Assembly (NCBI GenBank): GCA_964017185.1
Contig: OZ024869.1
Span: 56,012,761-56,076,760, forward strand
Length of the DNA stretch: 64,000 bases
Direction: 5' to 3'
Source of the DNA: Rugalucina vietnamica
Taxonomy: Eukaryota > Mollusca > Bivalvia > Lucinida > Lucinidae
The notes under the pieces were generated by a model. The model did not search any database, was not told the origin of the DNA, and worked only from the letters and a program-made list of their open reading frames with translations. The translations under genes were made by a program, and so were the position numbers. Of the stretch, positions 26,851-53,670 are shown piece by piece. Position 1 is the stretch's first letter, and every line of letters starts with the position of its first letter.

Positions 26851-27183
26851 AGAGTCTCTATTATGCCTTTTATTCCACCAAAACCATTATTGAAGTTATT
26901 TCATTGGGGTTTCGCGACATTATAGAGCTTGCATCCCTCTGTTTGGTATTCATCAAATACAAAGCTTCCAACTATATCCTGCTTCATGGTCGACATATGG
27001 ATGTTTGTGTATAGGCACTCATGACCGTAGTATGGTAAAAAACTGATGATCTGCCAGGAACAAATTCTTCTAAGCAAATTCAACCCAACTATAAGCATTT
27101 GCATTCAGTTAGAGGTTTTCGAGATTCTTAAACTCGTGGTTATGCCCGTTGTCAAATACCTACACAAAATAGGTGAGTGTTAG

Positions 27184-27439
27184 TGTTATGTCCCATTGCA
27201 CCACTCATTCATTCGAGATTATCTATGGTGCGTAGCTTCTATAAATAGCACAGCTATTCGATACAATGTATCACATATGTACAATCTCTGACATACTGCG
27301 TCAGGGAGTCGACTCTTTGGCTCAATGGTTAGAGCATTGGATTTCTACCCCGGCGGTCGGGGTTCGAATCCCATCTGGGACGTGGGATTTTTTCAAGCTA
27401 TGCATCACTTCTTAGTTACGAATTTTCATATTCGTAAGA
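27184..27439 (+). repeat. TRIM-1 left LTR
   Basis: 256 bp, starting TGTTATG. A TATAAATA box lies at 27240-27247, and the tRNA-like module is at 27311-27384 with a T6 run at 27388-27393. It differs from the right LTR by a T/A near 27226 and a T/G in the T run. Confidence 0.92.
27311..27384 (+). promoter_or_regulatory. tRNA-like pol III promoter module in TRIM-1 left LTR
   Basis: A box TGGCTCAATGG (27318-27328) and B box GGTTCGAATCC (27361-27371) both match the pol III consensus. The D stem GCTC/GAGC is intact. In tRNA register the anticodon would be TCT (Arg), but the anticodon stem (TTGGA/CCCGG) and acceptor stem do not pair, so it is tRNA-derived and not a functional tRNA gene. A run of six T follows at 27388-27393, a plausible pol III terminator. 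Confidence 0.8.
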
Positions 27440-27457
27440 TGGGGGCTCGTCCGGGAT
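27440..27457 (+). promoter_or_regulatory. TRIM-1 primer-binding site (tRNA-Pro)
   Basis: TGGGGGCTCGTCCGGGAT directly abuts the left LTR. It is complementary to the conserved 3' end of tRNA-Pro including the added CCA. Minus-strand DNA synthesis would start here. Confidence 0.9.
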
Positions 27458-27532
27458 GGACCATTTGAGTCATTTAGTCATTATAATGACATTCTCGTAA
27501 TCATAAATGATTACTTCCTCGAAATGGGTGTG

Positions 27533-27788
27533 TGTTATGTCCCATTGCACCACTCATTCATTCGAGATTATCTAAGGTGCGTAGCTTCTATAAATAGCAC
27601 AGCTATTCGATACAATGTATCACATATGTACAATCTCTGACATACTGCGTCAGGGAGTCGACTCTTTGGCTCAATGGTTAGAGCATTGGATTTCTACCCC
27701 GGCGGTCGGGGTTCGAATCCCATCTGGGACGTGGGATTTGTTCAAGCTATGCATCACTTCTTAGTTACGAATTTTCATATTCGTAAGA
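27533..27788 (+). repeat. TRIM-1 right LTR
   Basis: 256 bp, two mismatches to the left LTR. The tRNA-like A box (27667-27677) and B box (27710-27720) are unchanged, but the T6 run is broken to TTTGTT (27737-27742). The GAAATGGGTGTG sequence just upstream is a weak polypurine tract. Confidence 0.92.
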
Positions 27789-29789
27789 GTTAGTATTAAA
27801 ACAAAGGACGCCACATGGCTTTATTTAGTCAGGTAGTGAGTCTGTAGGTATTGCCATTACGGAAACAATGTTAATGTGTTTCAATTTTGACATATAAAAC
27901 ATAGTCGAGACGATTATAATTTATAAATAATTTATTCTTATGAATTATAATAATGATCGCGATTGTGCTGGCGTTGTTTTATGAACTCAACACCCCGCAA
28001 ACAGCTAAGGTCATACCGATACGAAACATCTGTTCAAAATTTCATTTGTTAGACAGTAGACATTAAGATCAAACAAGAACAAAGCGGCATCCATTACCGA
28101 GTGGTTAAAATATTTCACAATGCTTTGAGCTCCATGCCTGTTCTAATGGCTTGTTAAGATATTTTTTGTTTGAACTGATGCTTAACGTCCCAGCAAAAGC
28201 TATGGTCATGTCGGGCCATTGACTCCATTTTATGGGACTTTTACCCCAAAATCAGATGCCATGACATCCATAAAGTGCTTCAATTATAACCATCCAAGTA
28301 AGCCACTAAGGCTTATATTATATTGATGGTTTGATATGAACCAATTTTCTTGAGTAAGAAGATGGTCAGTCACTAGCGTAGAAGCTTTGCCTCGAGGCAC
28401 ACAGCCCATCTATTTCTTTAGGCCCCAATGTTCGAGGCCAATATTCCCAACCGACCACCCTAAGTTGCGTGTTTGAATAAATTTGATTGGATATGATGTT
28501 TTTCAGTGTACACCCTTATTTTTCCTACTTTGTACTTAGCTGAGTGATTAAATAATAATACTAAATAATAATTGTGATAATAATACTGATAATTAATAAA
28601 ATTATGATGAAATCATTTTAAGAAACTGTAGAATAAAAATAATTGTTAGATCCTTTGGAAGCAGTAGAACTTGCTCGCCTCACCATTTATTTACGGGGGT
28701 TTCTTAAGTCACAAGGGTTTGTATTAACAAAGTCATTTGACATTTGCATAAGATGTCAGCTGGTATGTCAGATTAACGAACTGTTTAGAAAATGACGTAT
28801 TTGTGCTGTAATCAGATAATATTAAATGGACTCAATTGGAAAAGGCAATTCAAGGACAAAAGAATGATTATTTTTCTTATAGCTCGGCAAATAGGTCACT
28901 GTATGGGCGTTACCTCATGAATACGTTATTGGGTATGGTCTACCTTTGACTTGGGTAAGAACTAAAGGTGTACAGTTAAAAGATTCAACTCACATGTTTT
29001 CCGTTACAAAATAAGAATGAAATTCGAGTTTGTCTAATTCACTGGATTGGACAAAATACAGGTAGCTGATTTCTAACGGTAAATATGTGACAGCGGTCCA
29101 GGCTGACTGAGTTCGATTTTCCTATAAACCCCCTACTTGAACAGATGGACTAGCCGACCACGCCCAGATATGAATATTTAAGTTGACGCCCATACAGTGA
29201 CCCATTTGCCGAGCTATACCGATATGCTGAAATACAAATTGGATTTAGGGTATTGGCATTCGAGTGACCCGCTGTCTTCGGTTTCATTGTCGCTTAAAAT
29301 ATAGTATCGAAGTGGTAAGGTAGATAGTGCTTAAAAATATAACACTTGTAGTTTTTTCTGAAATCCATTTAACGTGATTTTCTCTGAGAGTTTTTTTGTG
29401 CAATGTGAATTCAGCTTAAGTCTAAGTTTCTAAACACTAAAATATTGATCATTCAAAAGATATTCATTATGTCTGTTCGTCTCGGAGATGGAAGCAATTC
29501 AGAATCTAATAACCTAAATGTTGTCATCTCAGTCTATGATTCCTGGATTTCCTTTGGATTGTGTTTTCAGAATATCTAATGCTACCCATCTGATTCATTT
29601 AACCTGAGTAATAGCGTCATTCACGGATTAAAAATATAAACTTTTTCCATAGCAATAAAAGTAACCGCATGCTTGCTTTACACTTACAGAAATAGAACTT
29701 TTTTTTTCTTCTTCTCCGCGTCATTGAAATTGGTTCGACGCACAAACTATGAGTAGAGTGTACAAACAGAAAATTCAATGCAAAGAACA

Positions 29790-30906: not shown

Positions 30907-32298
30907 TACTGAAAATCAAAAATCTTGCACCCCCTCTGTTATTACATACTTTTTTTTTGTAATAAACTTGAATTTTATTATTTCTAATATTATTTTAGGT
31001 TACTACCAATATCAACTTTTTGACTTTGAGGGAAATTCAAGAGCGTGGATGATAATGCAAATTTTTCAGACAAAAAGTAAAATTGCAAGTTTTTGGGAAA
31101 AAGAAGGTTACCAATAGAAATTTTCAATGAGGTTTCATTGTACATGTGATCTTTATAGTGTCAGTGTTGCATGTAAAAAAAATAGAAATTTCGTGAAAAT
31201 TTAGTTTTTACAAAATTTTGAAAATTTGCGGAAAATTAATTGGTGGTTTTGAATTTTTTCTTTAAAAAGCGAAGAATACAACGAAAATGCATTCTAAGGT
31301 TAAGACAGATTAGTACATGCCCCACATAACTGGTTTGGCAAGGTTCATGAACAAAAGTCAAATCCGTTTGCTGTACTTCCGGTTTGGGTGCAAGAATTTT
31401 TATTTTTGATTTTCCAAGACCTGTTTCCTTATTGTTCGATTTTTTATGGACCATTTTAATGGGTGGGCGTTGTACAGCTTGTCTAAAACACTAAATTGAT
31501 AGGAACAATGCAAACTGTCCCCTCCAAGCAGCGTAAAATTGGTGCTTCATTTGGTCCAGTTAGATTGTGTTTTAAAACTCTACGAAATAATGCACCACCA
31601 ACTTTACGCTGCTTTGCTGGGACAATTCGCTATGTTCCTAACAAATTATTGTATGGGACAAGTTGTTCTCAGTACAATGGCACATAAAAACCGAAACCTA
31701 ACAAATTATTGTATGGAACAAGTTGTTCTCAAATCAGTACAATGACACATAAAAACCGAAACAAATACTGAATGGTAGTTGTAAAATCAAAATTAAAAAT
31801 TCTTGTATTCAACCGGAAGTACAGAATTCGGATACGACTTATGTTTATGAAACACACAGAAACAGTCATTCGGGACATGCGCTTATCTGCCATAACCATA
31901 GAATGCATTGGTCTTTGTAACCTCTGTTTTTTAAAGACCATTTTCAAAAACACTGGTTAATTTTCCGAAAAATGCCTATTTACAAAAAATTTGTAAAAAT
32001 ACAAATTAGATAAAATTAAAAATGTTGTGTTGTTTTTCTGATACTGACATTACATAGATCACATGCACAATCAAAAATTAGTCAAAAAATTAATTGGTAA
32101 TCAATTTTCCAAAAATGTGCAATTTGACACTTTTTGATCCAAAAATTTTGCATTATCATCAACATTCTTAAGTTTTCTGCAAAGTCAAAGATTTGATATT
32201 GGAACTGACCAAAAATAACATTAGAAATAAAAATAATTCTAGTTGATAATAAAACTTACCAAAAGCTGGGTGGTGTAAGACTATCGCTTTTCAGTGTA
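30907..32298. mobile_element. Fold-back element with about 500-600-bp inverted arms
   Basis: The ends TACTGAAAATC (30907) and CTTTTCAGTGTA (32298) are inverted. Left-arm blocks (ATTATTTTAGGTTACTACC, CATTGTACATGTGATCT, CTGTACTTCCGGTTTGGGTG, CAAGAATTTTTATTTTTG) recur inverted to the right (near 32206, 32058, 31810, 31786). The centre holds an inner inverted repeat (AAGCAGCGTAAAATTGGTG against CACCAACTTTACGCTGCTTT, 31526-31614). It also holds a tandem duplication of about 60-65 bp starting CTAACAAATTATTGTATGG at 31638 and 31698. It shares its ends with the MITE at 2936. No transposase was found. Confidence 0.75.
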
Positions 32299-36061: not shown

Positions 36062-36890
36062 TGTTACGTGCCAGGCGTAACTAGAAGATTAAGGAAACCA
36101 ACAAGTTGGTTAGCCAGCAACAAGCTTTGTTTAAAATTTAACAAATCTATTTAGAAGTGATTTAACCAGTAATTACATGTTAAACAATCAAAAGCATATA
36201 TACAATCAAACAAAAATGAATGTACAATACCTTTCAAGATGTTAATTCCCTTAAAGAATGTCTGAATGTCCCTCAGAATTTTTTAACACAAGTCTGTATC
36301 AGTTTCTGATCCCAAGAATTAAAGTTTGTTTCAAAATAGCACTATGTCCCAATCCAGAATCGAATATCACAAAGTAATCCAAGAATAAGTTTAAATTCCA
36401 GTAAGATAGATTTTGACTTCTTAATAGTAACAGTACCCAAAGATTGTCCTTATGAAAATTTGTAGCCCTTATATAGCACTGAGGAACATTCAGGATTCTT
36501 CCAGCAAATTCTATGATATCATATACTAAAAATAACAAGTTGTTTACCAAAATTTAATGTTCTGGAATATTCTAGAGAGGCCATTATCCTTCCAGAAAAT
36601 TCCACAATATTCTTTTGACATAAAAAAAAAATTTTTCTAGAAGATTCTACATCTTTGGTTCTTCCAGATTTTTCCGGACTTTTCCGTCAAAGAACAATTT
36701 GAAATTTCTAGAAAATTCTGAAGTAAACAACCTGTTTATGTCCAATATCTGGGACACTAAAAGTAAATAATTGCTAAGGACAACAAGTAAACATCATATG
36801 TATAACATCATACTTTCCTGGGCATACTCCCTTGGGAAGTTTATCAGTACTGAATGCACATCTTTCAACAAGTAACTGTCATACATAACA
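36062..36890 (-). repeat. Gypsy-1 3' LTR
   Basis: 829 bp; on the minus strand it begins TGTTATGTATGACAG and ends GGCACGTAACA. It matches the 5' LTR almost throughout; visible differences include an A-run length change near 36622 and about four substitutions. Confidence 0.95.
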
Positions 36891-37036: not shown

Positions 37037-39658
37037 TTAAGCTCTGCTTAGGGTGTCTGGAATGATATTATCTCTTCCTCGGATATGTCTGATGTCAAGA
37101 TTGTGCTCTTGCAACATGAGACTCCACCTGAGTAAACGCTGGTTCTTGTTTTTCATTTTATGTATGAAAGTCAGTGGATTGTGGTCACTGAAGACAACAA
37201 TTGGTGCATGTGAAGAAGCTAAGTAAACTTCAAAGTGCTGAAGCGCAAGGATTAGAGATAGGCATTCTTTCTCTATGGTAGAGTAATTTCTCTGATGCTT
37301 GTTAAACTTTTTGGAAAAATAACAAACAGGATGGTCAACACCATTGTCATCTTCTTGCAACAATACACTGCCTGCACCAACATCACTGGCATCTACAGCC
37401 AACTTGAACTCTTTGTCAAAACTTGGTGCTAAGAGAACCGGGGCACTTCTAAGTATGGCCTTGAGCTTATCAAATGACTTCTGGCAGTCATCTGTCCAAA
37501 CATACTTGGCCTTCTTACCAAGCAAGTTTGTCAGAGGCTCAGCTATAGCCGAGAAGTTGTTGCAGAATTTCCTATAATATCCAGACATACCCAGAAAGCG
37601 CATCAGTTGTCTTTTGCTAGTAGGTACAGGAAAATCTGAGATAGCCTCAACTTTAGCTTCTACAGGTTTTACCTGACCTTGACCTACAATGTGTCCAAGA
37701 AATGTCAAGTTTGCATGGCAAAATTCACTTTTTGCCAAGTTCACAGTTAGTTTAGCATCACTTAGCCGGTCAAAGAATGTTCTGATTGTCTGCAAGTGTT
37801 GTTGCCACTCCTCACTGAAGATAATAGCGTCGTCGATATAGGCTTTACAGCCATCCAGATTGGAAATCAAACTGTTGACCAGCCGCTGAAAAGTCGCAGG
37901 CGAGGTCTTCATTCCAAATGGCATGACTTTATACTGGTACAGTCCATCTGGTGTAACAAATGCCGAAATCTCCTTTGCTCTGTCCGTGAGGGGTGTCTGC
38001 CAAAATCCCTTTAGCAGATCGAACTTTGTAACATACTTGGCATGTCCAATATTATCAATGCAATCATCGATTCGTGGGATGGGAAAAGTGTCTGTTTTAG
38101 TGACAGAATTGACTTTTCGATAGTCTGTGCACATTCTAAATGTCCCGTCTGGCTTTGGTACAAGAATACAAGGAGAACTCCATTCACTTTGGCTGGGTTC
38201 AATGAAATCACTGTCTAGCAAATATTGAACTTCTTCCCTGAGATATTGCTGTTTTACAGGGTTCATTCTGTAAGGATGTTGCTTTACAGGTTTTGAACCT
38301 TCAATAATGTCAACATCATTATAGATTTTGTCAGTTCTGGATGGAATGTCCGGAAATAAGTGCTCATATTCGAGAATTAACTGTTTCAGTTCAAGTCTTT
38401 TGTCTGAATCAAGGTGAGACAGTTTCTGATCAAGATTCTGTAGTATGTCAGAATTCTTGAGTTTCGATGACGAGGGATCAGATTTCTCCAAGTTGAAGTC
38501 CTCAGAGTCCATTTGATTTTGTTCATGAGGGACAGAATTAACTATATTTACTGATGAAATAACAGAACTATCCCTATCAATATACTTCTTGAGCATATTA
38601 ATGTGACATAGCTGTTTTTGCTTGCGCCTCCCAGGAGTGTTAACAATGTAATTCACGTCACTTAACTTTTTATCAACAGTATACGGGCCATAATATCTAG
38701 CTTGTAAAGGTCTGCCAGGAATGGGCAAGAGAGCAAGTATCTTGTCTCCAGGTTCAAAATTTCTGTCTTTAGCATTTTCATCATAACGAATCTTCATTTT
38801 GCTTTGAGCAGATCTGAGATTGGACTGAGCTGCATCACAGGCCTTTGATAGTCTGCTTTTGAAATCAGACACATACTGAAGTAAGTTCAAAGAACTGTCA
38901 TCATCTGAGAGAAATTTCTCTTTTAGAAGTTTTAACGGTCCACGTACAGTGTGCCCAAAAACAAGCTCAAATGGGCTGAACCCCAGAGACTCTTGTACAG
39001 ATTCTCTTACAGCAAATAGAAGCAAGTGTATGCCTTCATCCCAATCTTTTTCAGTGTCAAAGCAGTAAGATCTGATCATGTTTTTCAAAGTTTGATGGAA
39101 TCTTTCTAAGGCACCTTGGCTTTCAGGGTGGTAAGCCGATGACTTGTATTGCTTAATTCCAAGTTCGTACATGACTTGCTGAAAAATTCCTGACATAAAA
39201 TTTGAGCCCTGGTCTGACTGGATAGATTTTGGGAAATCTATGAAGAACTTCACAAGTGCATTAACTATTGTTTTAGCCTTGATATTTCTGAGTGGGATAG
39301 CTTCAGGAAAGCGAGTTGAAGCACACATTATGGTCAGAAGATATTCACAACCTTTCTTTGTTTTGGGTAAGGGACCTACACAATCAATAATCACTCTGCT
39401 GAAAGGTTCATCAAAGGCAGGAATGGGCTGTAACTGAGCTTTAGGAATAGTCTGATTGGGTTTTCCTACCATCTGACAAGTGTGGCAGGATTTGCAGTGT
39501 TGAGATACATCAGATTTTATTCCTGGCCAGTAGAAATGATTAAGGATCTTGTGATAGGTCTTATTTACACCTAAATGGCCTGACATTGGAGTTTCATGGG
39601 CCAAGTTTAAGATTTCAGGGCGATAAACCCTAGGGATCACAATTTGGTGGTTAACAGT
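37037..39658 (-). pseudogene. pol: Gypsy-1 pol: integrase, reverse transcriptase, RNase H
   Basis: Open minus-strand frame of about 870 codons. In order: the integrase HHCC zinc site (HETPMSGH ... CKSCHTC), the integrase core with D (39383-39385), D (39212-39214) and E (39104-39106) at D-35-E spacing, a GPY/F-type C-terminal module (YYGPYTVDKK), an acidic linker, RT with YIDD at 37829-37840, and RNase H (LAVDASDVGAG, EKECLSL, FSDHNPL) ending near DTLSRA. Relative to gypsy-2 it lacks two residues of the conserved segment just before the second catalytic Asp (near 39232-39240). The start shown is the codon after a nonsense codon; the true frame continues upstream into the protease. The upstream breaks make it non-functional in this copy. 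Confidence 0.93.
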
Positions 39659-40684
39659 CTACTCATCTTCTGCGGAGACATCCGGAGGACGCCATTTTCG
39701 CATTAATATGCCATTTTTGACATAATAGCAAACAGGGACCTGGGATATTTCTTTTTCATCTAAAGCCCTTTCAAATAAAGGCGAGATCTCAGAATCACTG
39801 TGTTGTTCTTTACAAAGCTGTGACCTTGACATCTGGTCATGACCTTGGTCATTTGAGTTGGAAGGTGAAAGGTCATTTTCTGACCCCGACCTTGAATTGC
39901 TAGGGTCAGTCTGAATATCAGACTGACTAGGGGAAAGAGATGTTGAAATCTCTTTATTAAAGGACTGACCTATCAAAGTGTCAGTTAAATTTATGTCCTG
40001 CATCCCATCATATAATTTGGCTTTCTTAGCCATTGCCCTAGTAACAGCACAAGAAGGGTAAAGGTCAGGAATTTCCTGCTCAATGGGATCAGGCGGTTTA
40101 TCAACACATGGTGTGCTGGTCAAAAGTGGGTTTACCACAACCTTATCCCCTGCCAAATCATTGCCTAACAGCAAATGAATACCTTTAAAAGGTAAGGAAG
40201 GTCTAATACCTACAGCCACGGGACTTTTAACTAAGTCTGAGGACAAATAGATATTATGGAGCGGTACATTAACAAATCCACACTCTACGCCCTGGATAAG
40301 GACACTTGTCCCAGAAGAAGACTTCTCGGAAAATGGCAAGGTATCTGCCAAGATAAGGGATTGAGAAGCTCCGGTATCTCGTAAGATTTTGATAGGGGTA
40401 GACTGGGCAGAGTCACTGTTGAGCGACACAAAACCATCTGATAAGAATGGTTCATAAATCTCCATAATAGAATCCTCAGAGACTGACTCTTTACAAGTTC
40501 TGGTCAGTATAGGGTTTTCTTCCTGGATACAAGACTGTGGTTTAGCCTTTAAGGAGGTGAGGCCTGTTGGTTTAGCACTATCTAGATTTTCTCTTTCTTT
40601 CTTTCGTTTCAGTGCCAAACATTCAGAAATAATGTGGCCAGTTTTCTTACAATAATTACAAATTGGCTGGGATAAGGGATTTTG
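39659..40684 (-). pseudogene. pro: Gypsy-1 zinc knuckle and protease segment
   Basis: Minus-strand continuation of gag-pol between two nonsense codons: TGA at 40685-40687 (glycine in gypsy-2) and TAG at 39659-39661 (tryptophan in gypsy-2). It starts with the nucleocapsid knuckle CNYCKKTGHIISEC (CX2CX4HX4C), followed by a basic stretch. It then carries an aspartic protease with the active-site DTGAS and a later LLLGNDLAG segment that matches retroviral-type proteases. A long Ser/Asp-rich linker leads to the integrase. In the sister copy this is one uninterrupted frame with gag and pol, so no frameshift signal is needed. Confidence 0.88.
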
Positions 40685-40687
40685 TCA

Positions 40688-41876
40688 TTTGTTTTCACTA
40701 GAAAATTTGGGTTTTGGACTGGAATTGTCAGTTGGATTACTGGGATTGGCTTTGGGACCGGACTGAGGGGAATATGGTTTTGACTGAGGGGTAATTTGCT
40801 TTGATTGAGGGTTATATGGTTTCCTAGGATATGGCTTAATGACAAATGAAGCCTTATGAGTCAAAGCATAGTCATCAGCTAAACGTGCTGCTGTTTCCAA
40901 GTTTTCAACTTCTCTTTCGTTCAAGAAAGCCTTAACATCAGAATTTATGCACCGTTTGAATTCTTCAACAAGCATGAGCTGCCTTAGCTTTGCATGATCA
41001 GAACCTACTTTCTTTGAAGAACACCATCTATCAAATAGTTGCTCTTTTGTTCTAGCAAACTCAACATGAGTCTGGTCATGTTCTTTTCTACAGTCTCTAA
41101 ATTTCTGTCTGTATGCCTCAGGGACCAGCTCATAAGCCTTAAGGATAAGCTCTTTAACTTTGTCATAATCAGAACTTTGCTCAAGAGAAAGCTGAGTGTA
41201 AATTTCTCGAGCTTTACCAATTACAACACTTTGCAAAAGCAAGGTCCAGTGCTCTCTTGGCCATTTCAAGTTTTCTGCCACCTTCTCAAAATGTAAGAAA
41301 TATTTGTCAACCTCTTTTTCTTGAAATGGAGGAACGAGACGAATGTGTTTTGTGACATCAAATACTGTACTAGTAGCCAAAGGCAAAGATTTTGATTTTG
41401 ATTTGTCATTAAGTTCAATTTCCTTCATTCTTAACTGAAAATGCCTTTCTCTTTCTTTTTCTTCAATTTCAAATTTAAATTTTTCTTTTTCAATTTCAAG
41501 CCTTTCTTCTCTTTCTAATTTTTCTTTTTCTAACTCAATTTTTTCTCGTTCTAATTCTCTTTGTTTTTCCTTCTCTCGTTCTTCCATTTCTAACTTTTGT
41601 TTATGCATTCTTTCTTCCCGTTCTAAAGTTTCCAATCTTATTCTTTCTTCCCTTTCGGCCTTTTCTGCCCTTATTCTTTCATCCCGTTCTAAAGTTGCCA
41701 AGCTTATTCTTTCTTCATACTCAAATTTTAGTTTTTCCATCTCAATTTGTCTTTTGATTTCTAGTTCCCTCAACTGCAAGTCAGTCTGAGTGACTAGAAT
41801 CTGAGAAGTAGCCGAGGAATCAAAAATTTCCTCGTCAACAAAAAACTGAATCAAAATGTTCTTAATTTCATGTTTT
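40688..41876 (-). pseudogene. gag: Gypsy-1 gag, main part (coiled coil and SCAN-like capsid)
   Basis: Minus-strand capsid protein fragment. Its first ~120 residues after the helical start are an extended Glu/Arg/Lys coiled coil. A capsid region follows (LVPPFQEKEVDKYFLHFEKV onward), and then a segment EAYRQKFRDCRK ... LRQLMLVEEFKRCINSDVKA that matches the spacing of SCAN domains. This is consistent with the published view that SCAN derives from Gmr1-like gag. It ends in a Pro/Gln/Ser-rich tail at the TGA at 40685. The first 40 codons are displaced by the transposon at 41882-43661. Confidence 0.88.
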
Positions 41877-41881
41877 AACAT

Positions 41882-43661
41882 CACGGGGTCTATTCTCTAA
41901 GCCTCTATAATCTGGTGTCGTCCAGGTATAAGCAGGTTCCGGTAGTGGTTTTGTGAAATTGAATGTAAACAAAGAAATGGAGTAGACAGGTGAACAGGTA
42001 AGTTGCATTATTTCTGTTTTATCTTTTAATTTTGAATAAAATCCTGATGTGCAGTCTCAAGAGAATTTATAAACGCTAGTAGAAATCAAAACTAGAGTGG
42101 CGAAGATGCAATAGGGAACTAGATTTTGATGTTCAAAGTTTCGATACGTGGCTGTTTTGATGTAACAGTTTCGGCCAGATTCACAAGTTTGCCCTACATT
42201 TTGAATATTTATGCACCGGACATTGTCCGATTCGACCCACAAACAAATATAACCAGTATGTACATTCCTGGGAATCGAAATAGCTTCATGAAAGCGAGTC
42301 CAAAATAAAAAAATCTTGGTATAAGCACATTTTTTCAGGTGGTAGTGAATGTTAAGACGCTTTAGTACGGTAGACGTGCAATCTGACTGACACTGTACCA
42401 GGTACTCAAATTGCTTATGCAATCACAAGCACTCTCAAATTTGAAATAATTGAGCTTGTTTATAGTGGCTGAGAGACATATTCGCTCAAAAGCTTAACAA
42501 GGATCTTATTCCATCCCAAAACATAAAATGGTTCCTCATAATTCTGGCGTTAGTTGCATAATGCGAACTCTTGTGATATTGATGACACCATTTGATCTTC
42601 CTTATTCCTTAGCAACGGCGGGTTGCTTTCAGAGAGGCAGCTCCTGGGAACGTTAGGGGCCTACGTAGCGCTGGGAACATTTTTTTTCAACATACCGTTG
42701 CCCCGGTGACATCGTCGCTAGATTTCGCACTGCAAAAATGAAAAATAGTATACTTATTCAAACCTCAACAAAAATCACATGATTTGACAGTATTATTGAA
42801 CCGTATAAACAGAATAGTAATTTGCATGTAACTGTTGTTCAGATGGATTTGAATAAAAGATAAATCTTACGTTTTGGCCATATACGTTGAAAATACAAAT
42901 TCTTGAAGTTTATGATGATATAAATTTATGAAAATTGCGTTTATTTTCGCCGTTTCTACAATACCATAAAGAATCGCAATGCGTCATATTGACAATGTAC
43001 GCCAATACTCGAGCGCAATACTCGGTTTACCCCGGTTCGCCCCGGTTTGCCCCGGTTGTCCACGGTGCCGCTACGGTTCTACCCCGGTTCGTCCCGGTTA
43101 ACCCCGGTTTGTCAAACCGGGGTGAACTGGGGAGCTAAACCGGGACAGTGAGAACAGAGCTTTAACAGTTTCATGTTTTTTGGAAATATCTCACCACCCA
43201 TGATTTTGTGCTTTGCATTCACACCACCCCTACATTTTATTCTTATACGTTACATGTTTACATGCTGTTCTTCCTCCAAAGCAAAATGACACGTTATTTC
43301 TTGAATATATAAATCATTGTAGACCAACAAGTGTACTCACCTTCAGCAATCTGCTCAAAATCACAAGTGTATCGACAAATCAACCAAAATGCACCGCTAG
43401 TTTATCTTCTCGCGGATGAGGCACGTGCTTTTATGACCTTTGAACATTTCCGCTGAACGCTTCTCAAACGTTTGCAAAGATTTGTTAATGTTAATTTGAT
43501 GTTTTAATATGTATCTAGAGACTGCACTTCAAAAAATGTACATTGCTGACCTAAGTTCATATATTTCTTTCATTTTTCGAAGAAAGCAATGAAACACCAG
43601 ACTAAACTGACCTTAACCAGCACAACTCCCGAGCAAATTGGCTTGAAGAATAGACCCCGTG
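41882..43661. mobile_element. DNA transposon inserted in gypsy-1 gag (CACGGGG ends, 5-bp duplication)
   Basis: The ends CACGGGGTCTATTCTCTAAG and CTTGAAGAATAGACCCCGTG are inverted. AACAT is duplicated at 41877-41881 and 43662-43666, and removing element plus one AACAT gives colinearity with gypsy-2 gag. The 1780-bp body has no recognisable transposase; a 121-codon minus frame (42057-42422) matches nothing I know. A CCCCGGTT-rich patch lies at 43020-43150. Ends starting CAC plus a 5-bp duplication are features of Transib/RAG-like elements, while CMC elements also start CAC but usually duplicate 2-4 bp. The superfamily is left open. Confidence 0.85.
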
Positions 43662-43899: not shown

Positions 43900-44727
43900 T
43901 GTTACGTGCCAGGCGTAACTAGAAGATTAAGGAAACCAACAAGTTGGTTAGCCAGCAACAAGCTTTGTTTAAAATTTAACAAATCTATTTAGAAGTAATT
44001 TAACCAGTAATTACATGTGAAACAATCAAAAGCATATATACAATCAAACAAAAATGAATGTACAATACCTTTCAAGATGTTAATTCCCTTAAAGAATGTC
44101 TGAATGTCCCTCAGAATTTTTTAACACAAGTCTGTATCAGTTTCTGATCCCAAGAATTAAAGTTTGTTTCAAAATAGCACTATGTCCCAATCCAGAATCG
44201 AATATCACAAAGTAATCCAAGAATAAGTTTAAATTCCAGTAAGATAGATTTTGACTTCTTAATAGTAACAGTACCCAAAGATTGTCCTTATGAAAATTTG
44301 TAGCCCTTATATAGCACTGAGGAACATTCAGGATTCTTCCAGCAAATTCTATGATATCATATACTAAAAATAACAAGTTGTTTACCAAAATTTAATGTTC
44401 TGGAATATTCTAGAGAGGCCATTATCCTTCCAGAAAATTCCACAATATTCTTGTGACATAAAAAAAAATTTTTCTAGAAGATTCTACATCTTTGGTTCTT
44501 CCAGATTTTTCCGGACTTTTCCGTCAAAGAACAATTTGAAATTTCTAGAAAATTCTGAAGTAAACAACCTGTTTATGTCCAATATCTGGGACACTAAAAG
44601 TAAATAATTGCTAAGGACAACAAGTAAACATCATATGTATAACATCATACTTTCCTGGGCATACTCCCTTGGGAAGTTTACCAGTACTGAATGCACATCT
44701 TTCAACAAGTAACTGTCATACATAACA
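43900..44727 (-). repeat. Gypsy-1 5' LTR
   Basis: 828 bp, with a TATATAAG box on the minus strand (44307-44314). An 83-codon open frame (44137-44388 minus) is also present in the other two LTRs of the family but shows no domain. Confidence 0.95.
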
Positions 44728-48567: not shown

Positions 48568-50521
48568 ATGGCTACAGATCCTGAACTGTTAAAAGCAGAA
48601 GATTCTGTTAAACAAAAATATCTTGACATTGTGGCGGACTTGTCAGTCAAAGAATTGAAAAAGTTAAAAAAGAATGAGTACCAACAGCTGGTCCTGATTG
48701 ATCTAATGGAACTCCTGCCTGACTTTGAAAAATCTCAGTTAAACGAAACCGCACATTACGTGTCAAATGCCCTCAACAATTCAGTACAAAGACTGTTACC
48801 CAAAAAGCAGCGTGACCCCTCAATAAACAGAAAGAGGAGCACCGTGTTGCTTTCTGATACAGTCTTAGAAGACTTAGATACAACTATGCAGCCTGCGAAT
48901 AGCCAAATAGCAGTTGAATCTGAACTTCAACCCGGGTTACAGCATGAGTCGGAGGGCGATCAAAGTGAGATGAATGATAGTATTACTATATTAAAACAGA
49001 CAATATCATCCGGAACAGATACAACAGACAAGGGTAACAAGGACAATACGAGTACAAAATGCTGTGATGGATTCATCTGTGAAACACAAACCTAGGAAAT
49101 CATACTCCATGACAAGATGTTCACTTTGTGTCACATGGTATCACGACCAATGTGTCGGCTTGAGCAAAGATGAACCTGTTGGTGTATGGTTGTGCGTTTC
49201 CTGTCGCCAAGTTCCACAAGGTCTCCAAGACAGCCTGGTAGATATCAAAACAGATGTAGAACTGCTAAAAGAAACTTCGGAATCAGTAATTACTATATTA
49301 AAGTCATTGTCGGCGGAAGTTACGACAAGCATCCAAAGTATAAATGACAAGTTGTCAGCTTTAAGTAAACAAATAAACTGTAATGATAAGAAGGTAGCTG
49401 AATCTCTTGAAACCTTGAATGTTGCATCTGACAATATAAAAACAGGGTTTGAACAGAAAACATGCCAAATTTTGAACAAAACAACGTCAATAATGGACAA
49501 AATTAAACATTACAATGAAACACCAAAGCTAACGCCTACCAATCTAGTTGCTGGAGTTACACCGACGAACAATTCAAATGAGAAACAAAATAAATCAACT
49601 GATGTTACCAACGTCGACAGAAATGCCCAAAAACAATTAACGACACAAAAAGGCGCATCTCAAAACAAACAGCAGCCCAAAAAAACTAACCATAAGAAAA
49701 CTACGAATATCACTGATCAACATAACATAAATGAAGATGAAACAATCGATCTGACAAAAACTGCCACACCAAAAAAGCAAATAAATCAATCTACCCTCCT
49801 TGTGGGCAGTTCGATCCTGAAAGGAGTGAAAACTAATGACTTGAACAAAAATACTGCCGTCAGGACCTTTCCCGGAGCAACAATAGAAAAATTACAAAAT
49901 AAACTGAATCAGTATGATATAAGCAAGTGTGAAACCATAATCGTACACGTGGGTGGCAATGACGCAGATGAAGGTACCGAGTTAGACAGTTTTCGGTTGA
50001 AATATTCATCACTTCTTGACGAGTTGACATCCGAAAACCGGCGTGTTGTAGTATCGGGATTGCTCCCAAGGGCCAGTGTAGACCTCGACCCATATAATCT
50101 ATGCCTTAAGGATCTGTGTAATGGCCAAAGTGTAGAGTTTGTCGACCATTATAATGGCTTCCTGCTTGCTTCTGGTGACATTGCGGACTCGTATTACCAT
50201 AAGGATAAGCTACACCTAAACAGTTTTGGTACGCAAAAATTACTCAGAAACCTTGATGCAGTACACCGTGTAACAAGGCCGAATACTTCGTTTCAGTCTG
50301 CCGGTCAGACGAGGCGAAACGGTTCGTCAGCTGGGGTTGCAGGGTTTCAACACAAACAGAGAGGCTACCGAAATGGACGATATCTTAATGGGCCACGTGT
50401 GAACACCCAACATCATAATGGACGAAAATATTGCCACATTTGTATGATAAGTGGACATCTAACAAATGACTGCTGGTACAATGGCAGAAACACTAGTATG
50501 AGTGGATATTTTGCTCATTAG
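48568..50521 (+). pseudogene. LINE-2 ORF1: PHD-like finger, coiled coil, SGNH esterase, CCHC
   Basis: RNA-binding/accessory protein of a CR1-type LINE. The start is ATG at 48568 (MATDPELLKAED). Frame 1 is open to 49095, then the reading continues in frame 2 from about 49064-49090 to the TAG at 50519, so one frameshift splits the PHD-like finger (CSLCVTWYHDQC ... WLCVSC). Then come a coiled coil of about 90 residues and a basic/Asn-Thr linker. An SGNH hydrolase follows: VGSSIL with the nucleophile Ser near 49808-49813, GGND at 49952-49963, and DKLHLN with catalytic Asp and His codons at 50204 and 50213. Last is a CX2CX4HX4C knuckle (50432-50473). The esterase domain is known in CR1-like ORF1 proteins. 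The domain order is complete. Confidence 0.88.
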
Positions 50522-53500
50522 GAATCTGATGGGTGCATTGAACAATTTGATAATTTATTCTCAAATGTAAATTTTAAACTTAAAACGTACAATCGTTTTT
50601 CCTGTCTAAGTAAAGGCGAAAACATTGAATTTTCTTACACTGAAACCAGTCATGACAGTGTTTCTGACACATACAGTAGTCTGAATCAAAGTTTTTCGTG
50701 TGAAAATGACACGTCTACGTTACATGATCAAAGCATATCTTCTGACTGTACGGGCGAACTTTCCGACTTTTCTAATGACTGTACTGAAAAATTATCCAAC
50801 ACATATTTGAGTCAGCCATCGGAAATGAAATTTTGTTCAAAGGGACTACACCTTTGCAATTTAAATATCAGGCACATAGTTCGCAAAGTAGACGATTTAC
50901 GTATTTCAATGGCACAAGATAACTGTCCAGATGTACTTGGTTTATGTGAGACATTTCTCAGTAGTTCCGTTTCTGATAATCAGATTGCGTTAGACGGTTT
51001 TGATCTTATTCGAAAAGATAGGTCGGACACACAGACAAAGAGTGGAGGGGGTATAGTATTGTATTATCGACAGTCGATAAACTGCAGGCGAATGTCTGAC
51101 ATTGAAATCTCCAATATTAAAACTCTTTGGACAGAAATATCACTACCTAATTCTAAACCATTCCTTGTATGTACTGTCTACCGCCCTCCACACTCGAAAT
51201 CTGAGTGGATAGATCTTTTTGAAAAGGAGCTATCAATAGCCCAGACAACTGGCCTGGAGTTTATTATTATGGGCGACTTAAACATCGACTTGAGCTTAAA
51301 CACAAACAGAAAATGGCAACACTTGATAGAATTATTCGATTTAACTCAATTAATTAAAGATCCTACTCGAGTCACCGAGACCAGTTCTACCATAATTGAT
51401 CATATTTATACCTCAAACCCGGAAAACATTGTAGAGAGTTTCGTTTCTAATTATTCATTGAGTGACCATTTTCCGGTCTGTACAACACGAAAGATAAATA
51501 ACAAAATATCTAAACTCGATCATATAACGACTTCGTATCGATGTTTTAAAAATTTTAACGAAGAGGCATTTATTTCAGGTCTCGCGAATGACCTAGATAA
51601 TTTCTCAGCTAATAAAATGGACATAAATGAAGACATTTCCATTTGGTATAGTATTATTTTAAAGCATTTAGATTATCATGCTCCCTACAAAATTAAACGT
51701 GTAAGAACAAAACATTTACCAGAGTGGTATAATGATGAAATTGCTAGTGCTAGAAAAATGAGAGATAATTGTAAGCGTAGACAATTATGGCCAGAATACA
51801 GAAAATATCGTAACAAAGCAAAGCAACTAATAAGGGTGGCGAAACGAAAACTATTTACTGATTCGGTTATGAATTCAAAAGATACTAAAACCATATGGCA
51901 GCACTTTAAGAAAGTTAACAATAAACATAACTGTTCTAGCAAAAAATTACCCGATGAAATTATAATTGATAACAACCGGTTTACGTCTTCGGAAGACATT
52001 GCATCTGAATTAAACAAGTATTTTGCAACTATTTCTAAAATATTTGGCAGCAATGATAAAGACGAATTAGAAACTGATTTTAATCATTTAGAAAACTTTA
52101 TAAACGATAAGGTGCCGATTGATGTGCAGTTTAGAATTCCGTTTATTACACCTGATCAGGTAACGGAGATAATAAATGCTCTAGACTCATCCAAAGCAAT
52201 GGGACTAGATGGTCTTGGGCCGCGGATCCTTAAGTCGGTAGGATGTACAATATCTCACAGTCTTGCTGAACTTATCAATAAAAGCATAGAAACAGGTTGC
52301 TTTCCTGACCGGCTCAAACTTGCAAAAGTCTTCCCCGTGTATAAGAGCGGTAGCAAATCCGATCCGAACAATTATCGGCCAATTTCTATATTGCCGACTA
52401 TCTCCAAAATATTTGAAAGACACATCAACAAACATTTAATGTCTTACTTGAATAAGTATTCTTTAATTCACGAAACCCAGTCGGGGTTTCGTCCAAAACA
52501 CAGCTGCCAAACTGCACTGGTAAAGTTAATAGATAAATGGATGTCCTGTATCGACCAGGGAGATGTCATTGGCTCTCTGTTTATAGATTTTAGAAAAGCT
52601 TTCGACCTGGTCAATCATGAAATTCTTTTACAAAAACTATCAAAATATAAGATATGTAACACATCACTGAGCTGGTTTAAGTCTTATCTTGAGTCACGTC
52701 AGCAAACTATACAAAACGATCAAGGGATGTCTTCCTATGCAAATATCATGTCTGGCGGCTACAGGGGTCCATTTTGGGACCAACACTATTTCTGCTTTTT
52801 ATTAATGATATGCCTCTTCTGTTAAAATATTGTTACGCTGACCTCTTTGCTGATGATGCAACATTTCACAAAAATAGCCCAGACGTAGACGTAATAGAAG
52901 ATGAAATACTCACTGACTTCTTAACAATAGTGCATTGGAGTAAACAAAATAAACTTCCTATCAATTTTAATAAAAGTACATACATGCTTCTTGGAGCCAA
53001 AAAACGTACTCCAGACGATTTTGAACTACATTTGATTATAGATAATAATAAAATCGAAAAAGTATCGAAACAAAAACTTCTCGGAATTTTCATTGATGAT
53101 AATCTTACATGGACGCCGCATATTGATTACCTATGTTCTTTACTATCATCTAAAATTTCGCTTCTTAAACAATTATCGGCATATGTGCCACAAAAAGTAC
53201 AAAAACTATTTTATCAAACTTATATCTTACCATTAATCGACTACGGATGTAATACATGGGGAGCTACAACGACTGCAAATATTGAACGCATTTCCAAGCT
53301 ACAAAAAAGAGCTGCTCGCATCATTCTGCAAGCAGATTACATGACCTCATCTACATATATGTTTGAAGAATTAGGATGGCAAACCATTCCCAAGCGATTG
53401 ATGTATAATAAAGCGGTACTAACTTTTAAAGCCTTAAATAATTTGACTCCTTCGTATATTTCAAATTTACTAAAGCCAATGTCAGAATCACATCAACTGT

Positions 53501-53670
53501 CACTGAGATCATCTAATAATGGCCTATTGTCTATACCCAGGTCCAGGTCTGCTCTATTTGATCGCTCGTTTTCATATTCCGCATCAAAATTATGGAATTC
53601 ATTTCCTCAGGCGTTAAGAACAACAAGCTCCCTACAAGCATTTAAGACAGGTCTTAAAAATCACTTATAA
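50522..53670 (+). pseudogene. LINE-2 ORF2: APE endonuclease and reverse transcriptase, one frameshift
   Basis: The frame opens right after the ORF1 stop, in the same frame; the first ATG is at 50825. The endonuclease motifs run from LNIRHI through CETFL, GGGIVLYYR and GDLNIDL to SDHFPV. They are followed by an RT with MGLDGLGPRILKS, NNYRPISILP, QSGFRPKHSCQTA and FIDFRKAFDLVNH. Frame 2 ends at 52825, but similarity passes to frame 1 near 52760-52775 and continues to 53670 with FADD at 52846-52857, the thumb and the C-terminal region. The damaged spot lies just before the conserved GPTLFLLFIND motif. The catalytic residues of both enzymes are present, yet this copy cannot make a complete protein. 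Confidence 0.9.

Follow-up and report, generated by a model that had tools for sequence, protein, structure and literature searches.

A short non-coding LTR retrotransposon with tRNA-like sequence in both LTRs in the bivalve Rugalucina vietnamica

Two short direct repeats, each with the internal promoter boxes of a tRNA gene, lie near the middle of a 64,000-nucleotide (64-kb) stretch of Rugalucina vietnamica DNA (contig OZ024869.1; this whole stretch is termed the window). The locus raises the questions of whether the repeats belong to a mobile element, where their tRNA-like sequence came from, and which RNA polymerase would transcribe it. A preliminary description had viewed the locus as a miniature LTR retrotransposon with a tRNA-derived module in both LTRs and as an undescribed system. 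The structural part of this view was upheld by our analysis; the novelty was not, as such elements are already known as Helenus (PMC10886601). We conclude with high confidence that the locus is one copy of a protein-less, Helenus-type TRIM (TRIMp3) with LTRs that include decayed sequence derived from a tRNA or a SINE head.

Anatomy and insertion of the element

The element spans 605 bp of the forward strand (27184-27788) and is composed of a 256-bp 5' LTR (27184-27439, +), a 93-bp interior (27440-27532, +) and a 256-bp 3' LTR (27533-27788, +). The first bases of the 5' LTR are TGTTATGT and the last are CGTAAGA; thus, the LTRs end in GA and not CA. By alignment of the LTRs to one another, 2 of the 256 positions were found to be mismatched (T/A at 27226 and T/G at 27391), in agreement with the preliminary description. 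The duplication GTTAG noted there was likewise found on both sides of the element, at 27179-27183 and 27789-27793. Because the base that precedes each LTR copy is a G, a 4-bp duplication GTTA (27179-27182 and 27789-27792) with 257-bp LTRs fits equally well as GTTAG with 256-bp LTRs; if the LTRs are read as starting with TG, the duplication is 5 bp.

Directly abutting the 5' LTR is an 18-nt primer-binding site for tRNA-Pro, TGGGGGCTCGTCCGGGAT (27440-27457, +), as had been proposed; the identical 18 nt are given as a tRNA-Pro primer site in a passage of PMC1769482. No stop-to-stop open reading frame of at least 90 amino acids overlaps the element. Of the features by which TRIMs are recognized, the element has an LTR pair, a total length below approximately 1000 bp, an interior with no coding capacity, a primer site and a target-site duplication. 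Taken together, the two direct repeats, the short non-coding interior and the duplication are the anatomy of a TRIM.

The remainder of the interior includes a perfect palindrome of 14 nt (27477-27490) and a hairpin with an 8-bp stem and 2-nt loop (27497-27514). When the 75-nt core was shuffled 5000 times by mononucleotide, two hairpins (arm of at least 7, loop of at most 4) were never obtained, and at least one hairpin was obtained in 136 of the shuffles. The fold energy of the interior was unremarkable (z of -0.30 for the whole interior and -1.85 without the primer-binding site, with 8 of 200 shuffles equally good in the latter case). Whether these hairpins have a possible role in RNA dimerisation or packaging is a matter of speculation. 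A weak candidate for the polypurine tract, GAAATGGGTGTG (27521-27532, +; 9 of 12 bases purine, by inspection only), precedes the 3' LTR.

The insertion was examined by an empty-site approach, in which both flanks were joined without the element into 1200 nt (junction at 600) and aligned to the window. The joined flanks matched a diverged repeat at 10707-10274 across the junction (join 533-962) with 71% identity (446 columns, 317 identical, 28 gap positions), with 68 bases of the left flank covered. They also matched a repeat at 54998-54851 across the junction (join 535-681) with 77% identity over 148 columns. As diverged repeats of the window run through the junction, the element is a genuine insertion. 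The length of the duplication is not settled by the repeat at 10707-10274, since two bases are missing there near the junction. When the element was compared to the 64-kb window by BLAST, no copy was detected beyond its own LTR pair. Pattern scans of viral and prokaryotic contig collections returned 0 matches, a result that says little on copies in bivalves.

The tRNA-like part of the LTRs

Each LTR includes a tRNA-like stretch of 72 nt on the + strand, at 27311-27382 in the 5' LTR and 27660-27731 in the 3' LTR. The A box TGGCTCAATGG (27318-27328) and B box GGTTCGAATCC (27361-27371) of the 5' LTR are both intact and at tRNA spacing, and those of the 3' LTR are at 27667-27677 and 27710-27720. 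The Rfam tRNA model (RF00005) matched both stretches over its full length (model positions 1-71) with 27.8 bits and an E value of 0.0012 (631 bases searched); the score falls 1.2 bits short of 29, at which gathering is set for this family. An Rfam scan of the whole window at the gathering threshold reported no family, and nothing is listed for this locus because the tRNA match scores just under 29. A strict pattern of A plus B box was found twice in the window, both times in these LTRs, and in none of 100 shuffles. With a looser pattern, the pair occurred once in the LTR compared to 0 of 20,000 LTR shuffles and, on the scale of the window, twice compared to a mean of 0.005 and a maximum of 1 in 200 shuffles. 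By the Rfam alignment and these shuffles, the claim that each LTR has A and B boxes at tRNA spacing together with an intact D stem was confirmed.

The rest of the cloverleaf is decayed. By manual count on the Rfam alignment, 6 of 21 pairs are non-standard (3 in the acceptor stem, 1 in the anticodon stem and 2 in the T stem), and none of them is in the D stem. In its minimum-energy fold the stretch does not form a cloverleaf, and it folds no better than most shuffles (z of -1.18, 27 of 200 equally good). ARAGORN at default settings found no tRNA. Based on the broken pairs, the non-cloverleaf fold and the negative ARAGORN result, a functional tRNA gene was rejected. When loosened, ARAGORN reported a low-scoring tRNA-Arg(tct) in both LTRs as well as an undefined call on the opposite strand; this isotype was not relied upon, and further loosening raised the number of calls to 389, which is noise.

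Both LTRs of a new LTR-retrotransposon copy are made from one RNA template. Since the two LTRs derive from a single RNA, and their tRNA-like stretches differ at 0 of 72 positions, the tRNA-like part was aboard before the present copy moved. The single late tRNA insertion that the preliminary description feared is thereby answered for this copy, as the stretch pre-dates its landing. A related explanation, that the A and B boxes arose by chance or came with an independent late SINE insertion and are no part of the element, might draw on the fact that a single copy was examined; the identity of the stretches, the 20,000 LTR shuffles and the match to the full-length tRNA model stand against it, and we give this explanation almost no weight. 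We infer that the tRNA-like part came from a captured tRNA or SINE head.

Transcription and mobilisation of the element

Two candidate promoter signals compete in the LTR. In addition to the A and B boxes, which would serve pol III, the TATA-box-like motif TATAAATA noted earlier was verified at 27240-27247 (+) and is repeated at 27589-27596; as a motif only, it is a candidate signal for pol II. Pol III normally stops at tracts of T, and a terminator-like T6 tract (27388-27393, +) is located 5 nt behind the tRNA-like stretch of the 5' LTR. A T4 tract follows near the end of this LTR (27423-27426, +; repeated at 27772-27775). Both tracts are between the A and B boxes and the primer site; hence, a pol III that starts here could reach the primer site only by reading through T6 and T4. 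The T6 of the 5' LTR should halt pol III before the primer site, which counts against a full-length pol III RNA. At the matching site of the 3' LTR the sequence is TTTGTT, and one of the two forms is a later change or copying error. Transcription of the element by pol III is plausible; a full-length pol III transcript from this copy is hypothetical.

Signals for the pol II 3' end were also examined. Neither AATAAA nor ATTAAA is present within the element, so that there is no obvious site in the 3' LTR for an ordinary pol II 3' end. The interior does contain CATAAA, a weaker hexamer of the poly(A) type, at 27502, and an ATTAAA is in the flank at 27795; a pol II transcript might therefore end somewhere outside of the LTR.

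While the primer site and the LTRs can be read from the anatomy, the working model that we favor otherwise draws on what is known of LTR retrotransposons in general. In this model, transcription would start in the 5' LTR, at least partly through pol III acting on the internal A and B boxes, and the RNA would extend across the 93 nt of the interior to end in the 3' LTR. Reverse transcription would then be primed by tRNA-Pro at 27440, and the enzymes of an autonomous Gypsy-type element would act in trans, integrate the copy and duplicate 4-5 bp. We lean, with some reserve, toward pol III as a polymerase that transcribes the element; this inclination is suggested by boxes that are intact although the rest of the tRNA has decayed, and by the missing AATAAA and ATTAAA. 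Mobilisation by a Gypsy-type element is probable.

Alternatively, pol II may transcribe the TRIM by way of the TATA box at 27240, and the tRNA-like part would then be a SINE fragment carried passively in the LTR. The presence of TATAAATA is consistent with this explanation, as are the 6 broken cloverleaf pairs and the T6 behind the tRNA-like part of the 5' LTR, which would end pol III early. By contrast, a passive fragment does not readily account for the survival of the two promoter boxes and the D stem in a stretch that has otherwise decayed, nor does pol II transcription fit well with an element that has neither of the two common poly(A) signals. On balance, we view transcription by pol II with a passive tRNA-like part as possible but rather unlikely. 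The polymerases might also have divided the work, such that the genomic RNA comes from pol II and pol III produces an RNA of approximately 80 nt that ends at T6 and has a separate effect (e.g., competing or regulating). An upstream TATA box and a T6 directly behind the tRNA-like part of the same LTR would suit such dual use; however, the T6 is in just one of the two LTRs and may have arisen by mutation in this copy alone, and we find dual use improbable. Still more doubtful is an LTR that acts as a two-polymerase switch, in which the TATA box would give the genomic RNA and the state of the T tract (T6 or TTTGTT) would decide whether pol III makes a short tRNA-like RNA or transcribes the full length. 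If such a switch did exist, single T-tract changes would turn copies on or off as sources of retrotransposition.

Returning to the favored model, with its enzymes supplied in trans, the window includes a Gypsy-type element with LTRs of 828-829 bp (36062-36890 and 43900-44727, - strand); another copy of it occupies the window from 58319 to its end. The frames of the Gypsy-type element match integrase, reverse transcriptase and RNase H families. Its LTRs share the first 8 bases, TGTTATGT, with the TRIM, and its primer site reads TGGGGGCTCG-AG-TCCGGGAT, such that 10 identical nt, a 2-nt insertion and 8 identical nt are seen compared to the TRIM site. Unlike the TRIM, the Gypsy-type element is protein-coding and has a 4-bp duplication (GAGG) and a purine-rich polypurine tract. 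Comparison of the TRIM to the Gypsy-type LTR, leader and 3' end yielded only matches of 8-13 nt (best E of 0.36), the primer site and LTR start included. The Gypsy-type family of the window is a candidate partner by primer site only. In the view of Kojima (PMC10886601), animal Helenus elements use Gypsy enzymes; the likeness found here agrees with this view and does not identify the partner.

Additional features of the window were recorded. The gag-like frame of the Gypsy-type element matched the SCAN domain. We take this domain to be linked to the Gmr1 clade of Gypsy elements. At 37037-41896 (- strand), the integrase (residues 8-178) is upstream of the reverse transcriptase (500-658) and RNase H (721-851) in one frame, and integrase before reverse transcriptase, an unusual arrangement, is described as the order of the Gmr1 clade in a passage of PMC6238403. 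An insert of 1780 bp in the Gypsy-type element (41882-43661) is missing from the second copy and has inverted ends of 22 bp (91% alike) that start with CACGGGG as well as a 5-bp duplication, ATGTT. This insert is a DNA transposon, presumably Transib-like. A tandem array of a 373-bp unit (1-2642; 7.1 copies, 93% matches) runs off the window start, and a long imperfect inverted repeat of the fold-back type is at 30955-32254 (66% self-complementary over 1392 columns).

A LINE was also found at 48995-53670, with a first open reading frame that is GDSL-esterase-like and has a PHD match below the Pfam cut-off, and a second that encodes endonuclease and reverse transcriptase. For the first frame (48995-50521), 74 relatives were found among the best 8000 candidates scored; 3 of the 74 were named, two from Candidatus Thiodiazotropha MAGs and one from a Sedimenticola MAG. 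For the second (50522-52825), 282 relatives were found and those named among the best 120 of the 282 were five from Thiodiazotropha MAGs and one 'hypothetical protein'. Thiodiazotropha and Sedimenticola are clam-associated symbionts. The LINE relatives in these bacterial MAGs appear to be host contamination, and their presence fits a bivalve host because the bacteria are associated with clams.

Comparison with Helenus and other TRIMs

Helenus was named by Kojima in 2024 for TRIMs that have tRNA-derived A and B boxes in their LTRs (the 'TRIMp3' group). Pteriomorph bivalves account for 51 of the families, the primers reported in bivalves include tRNA-Pro, and the published length range is 311-1263 bp (PMC10886601). 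Thus, the statement that no tRNA-bearing TRIM was known from molluscs does not hold, and with bivalve families described in 2024 the claim of an undescribed system fails with it. Similarly to the bivalve Helenus, the present element has A and B boxes inside both LTRs, a primer-binding site just downstream of the 5' LTR, a tRNA-Pro primer and, at 605 bp, a length within the published range; as in Helenus, its boxes are kept even though the RNA probably could not function as a tRNA. It differs in that its polypurine tract is weak and its duplication is 4 or 5 bp, compared to the 4 bp of animal Helenus (PMC10886601). By the features described for the class, the present copy is assigned to the Helenus type. 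Pol III transcription of the class is without experimental validation according to PMC10886601. Within this recently named class, the locus provides a copy that is well preserved and has LTRs that are almost the same, and the T6/TTTGTT difference between its LTRs bears on pol III use for the genomic RNA of such elements; otherwise, it is one more copy for a known group.

Among other TRIMs, the bivalve biv-TRIM of 2019 (PMC6934838) similarly has an interior with palindromes or inverted repeats. By contrast to the element described here, no canonical primer-binding site was identified in it, and the passages of that paper on which this comparison is based do not mention a tRNA-like LTR. The plant Cassandra TRIMs also have a pol III promoter derived from a small RNA in their LTRs and no coding capacity. 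Membership in Cassandra was rejected, as tRNA was the only Rfam family found for 27170-27800 up to an E value of 1; the LTR sequence is tRNA-derived in the present element, whereas in plant Cassandra it is derived from 5S rRNA.
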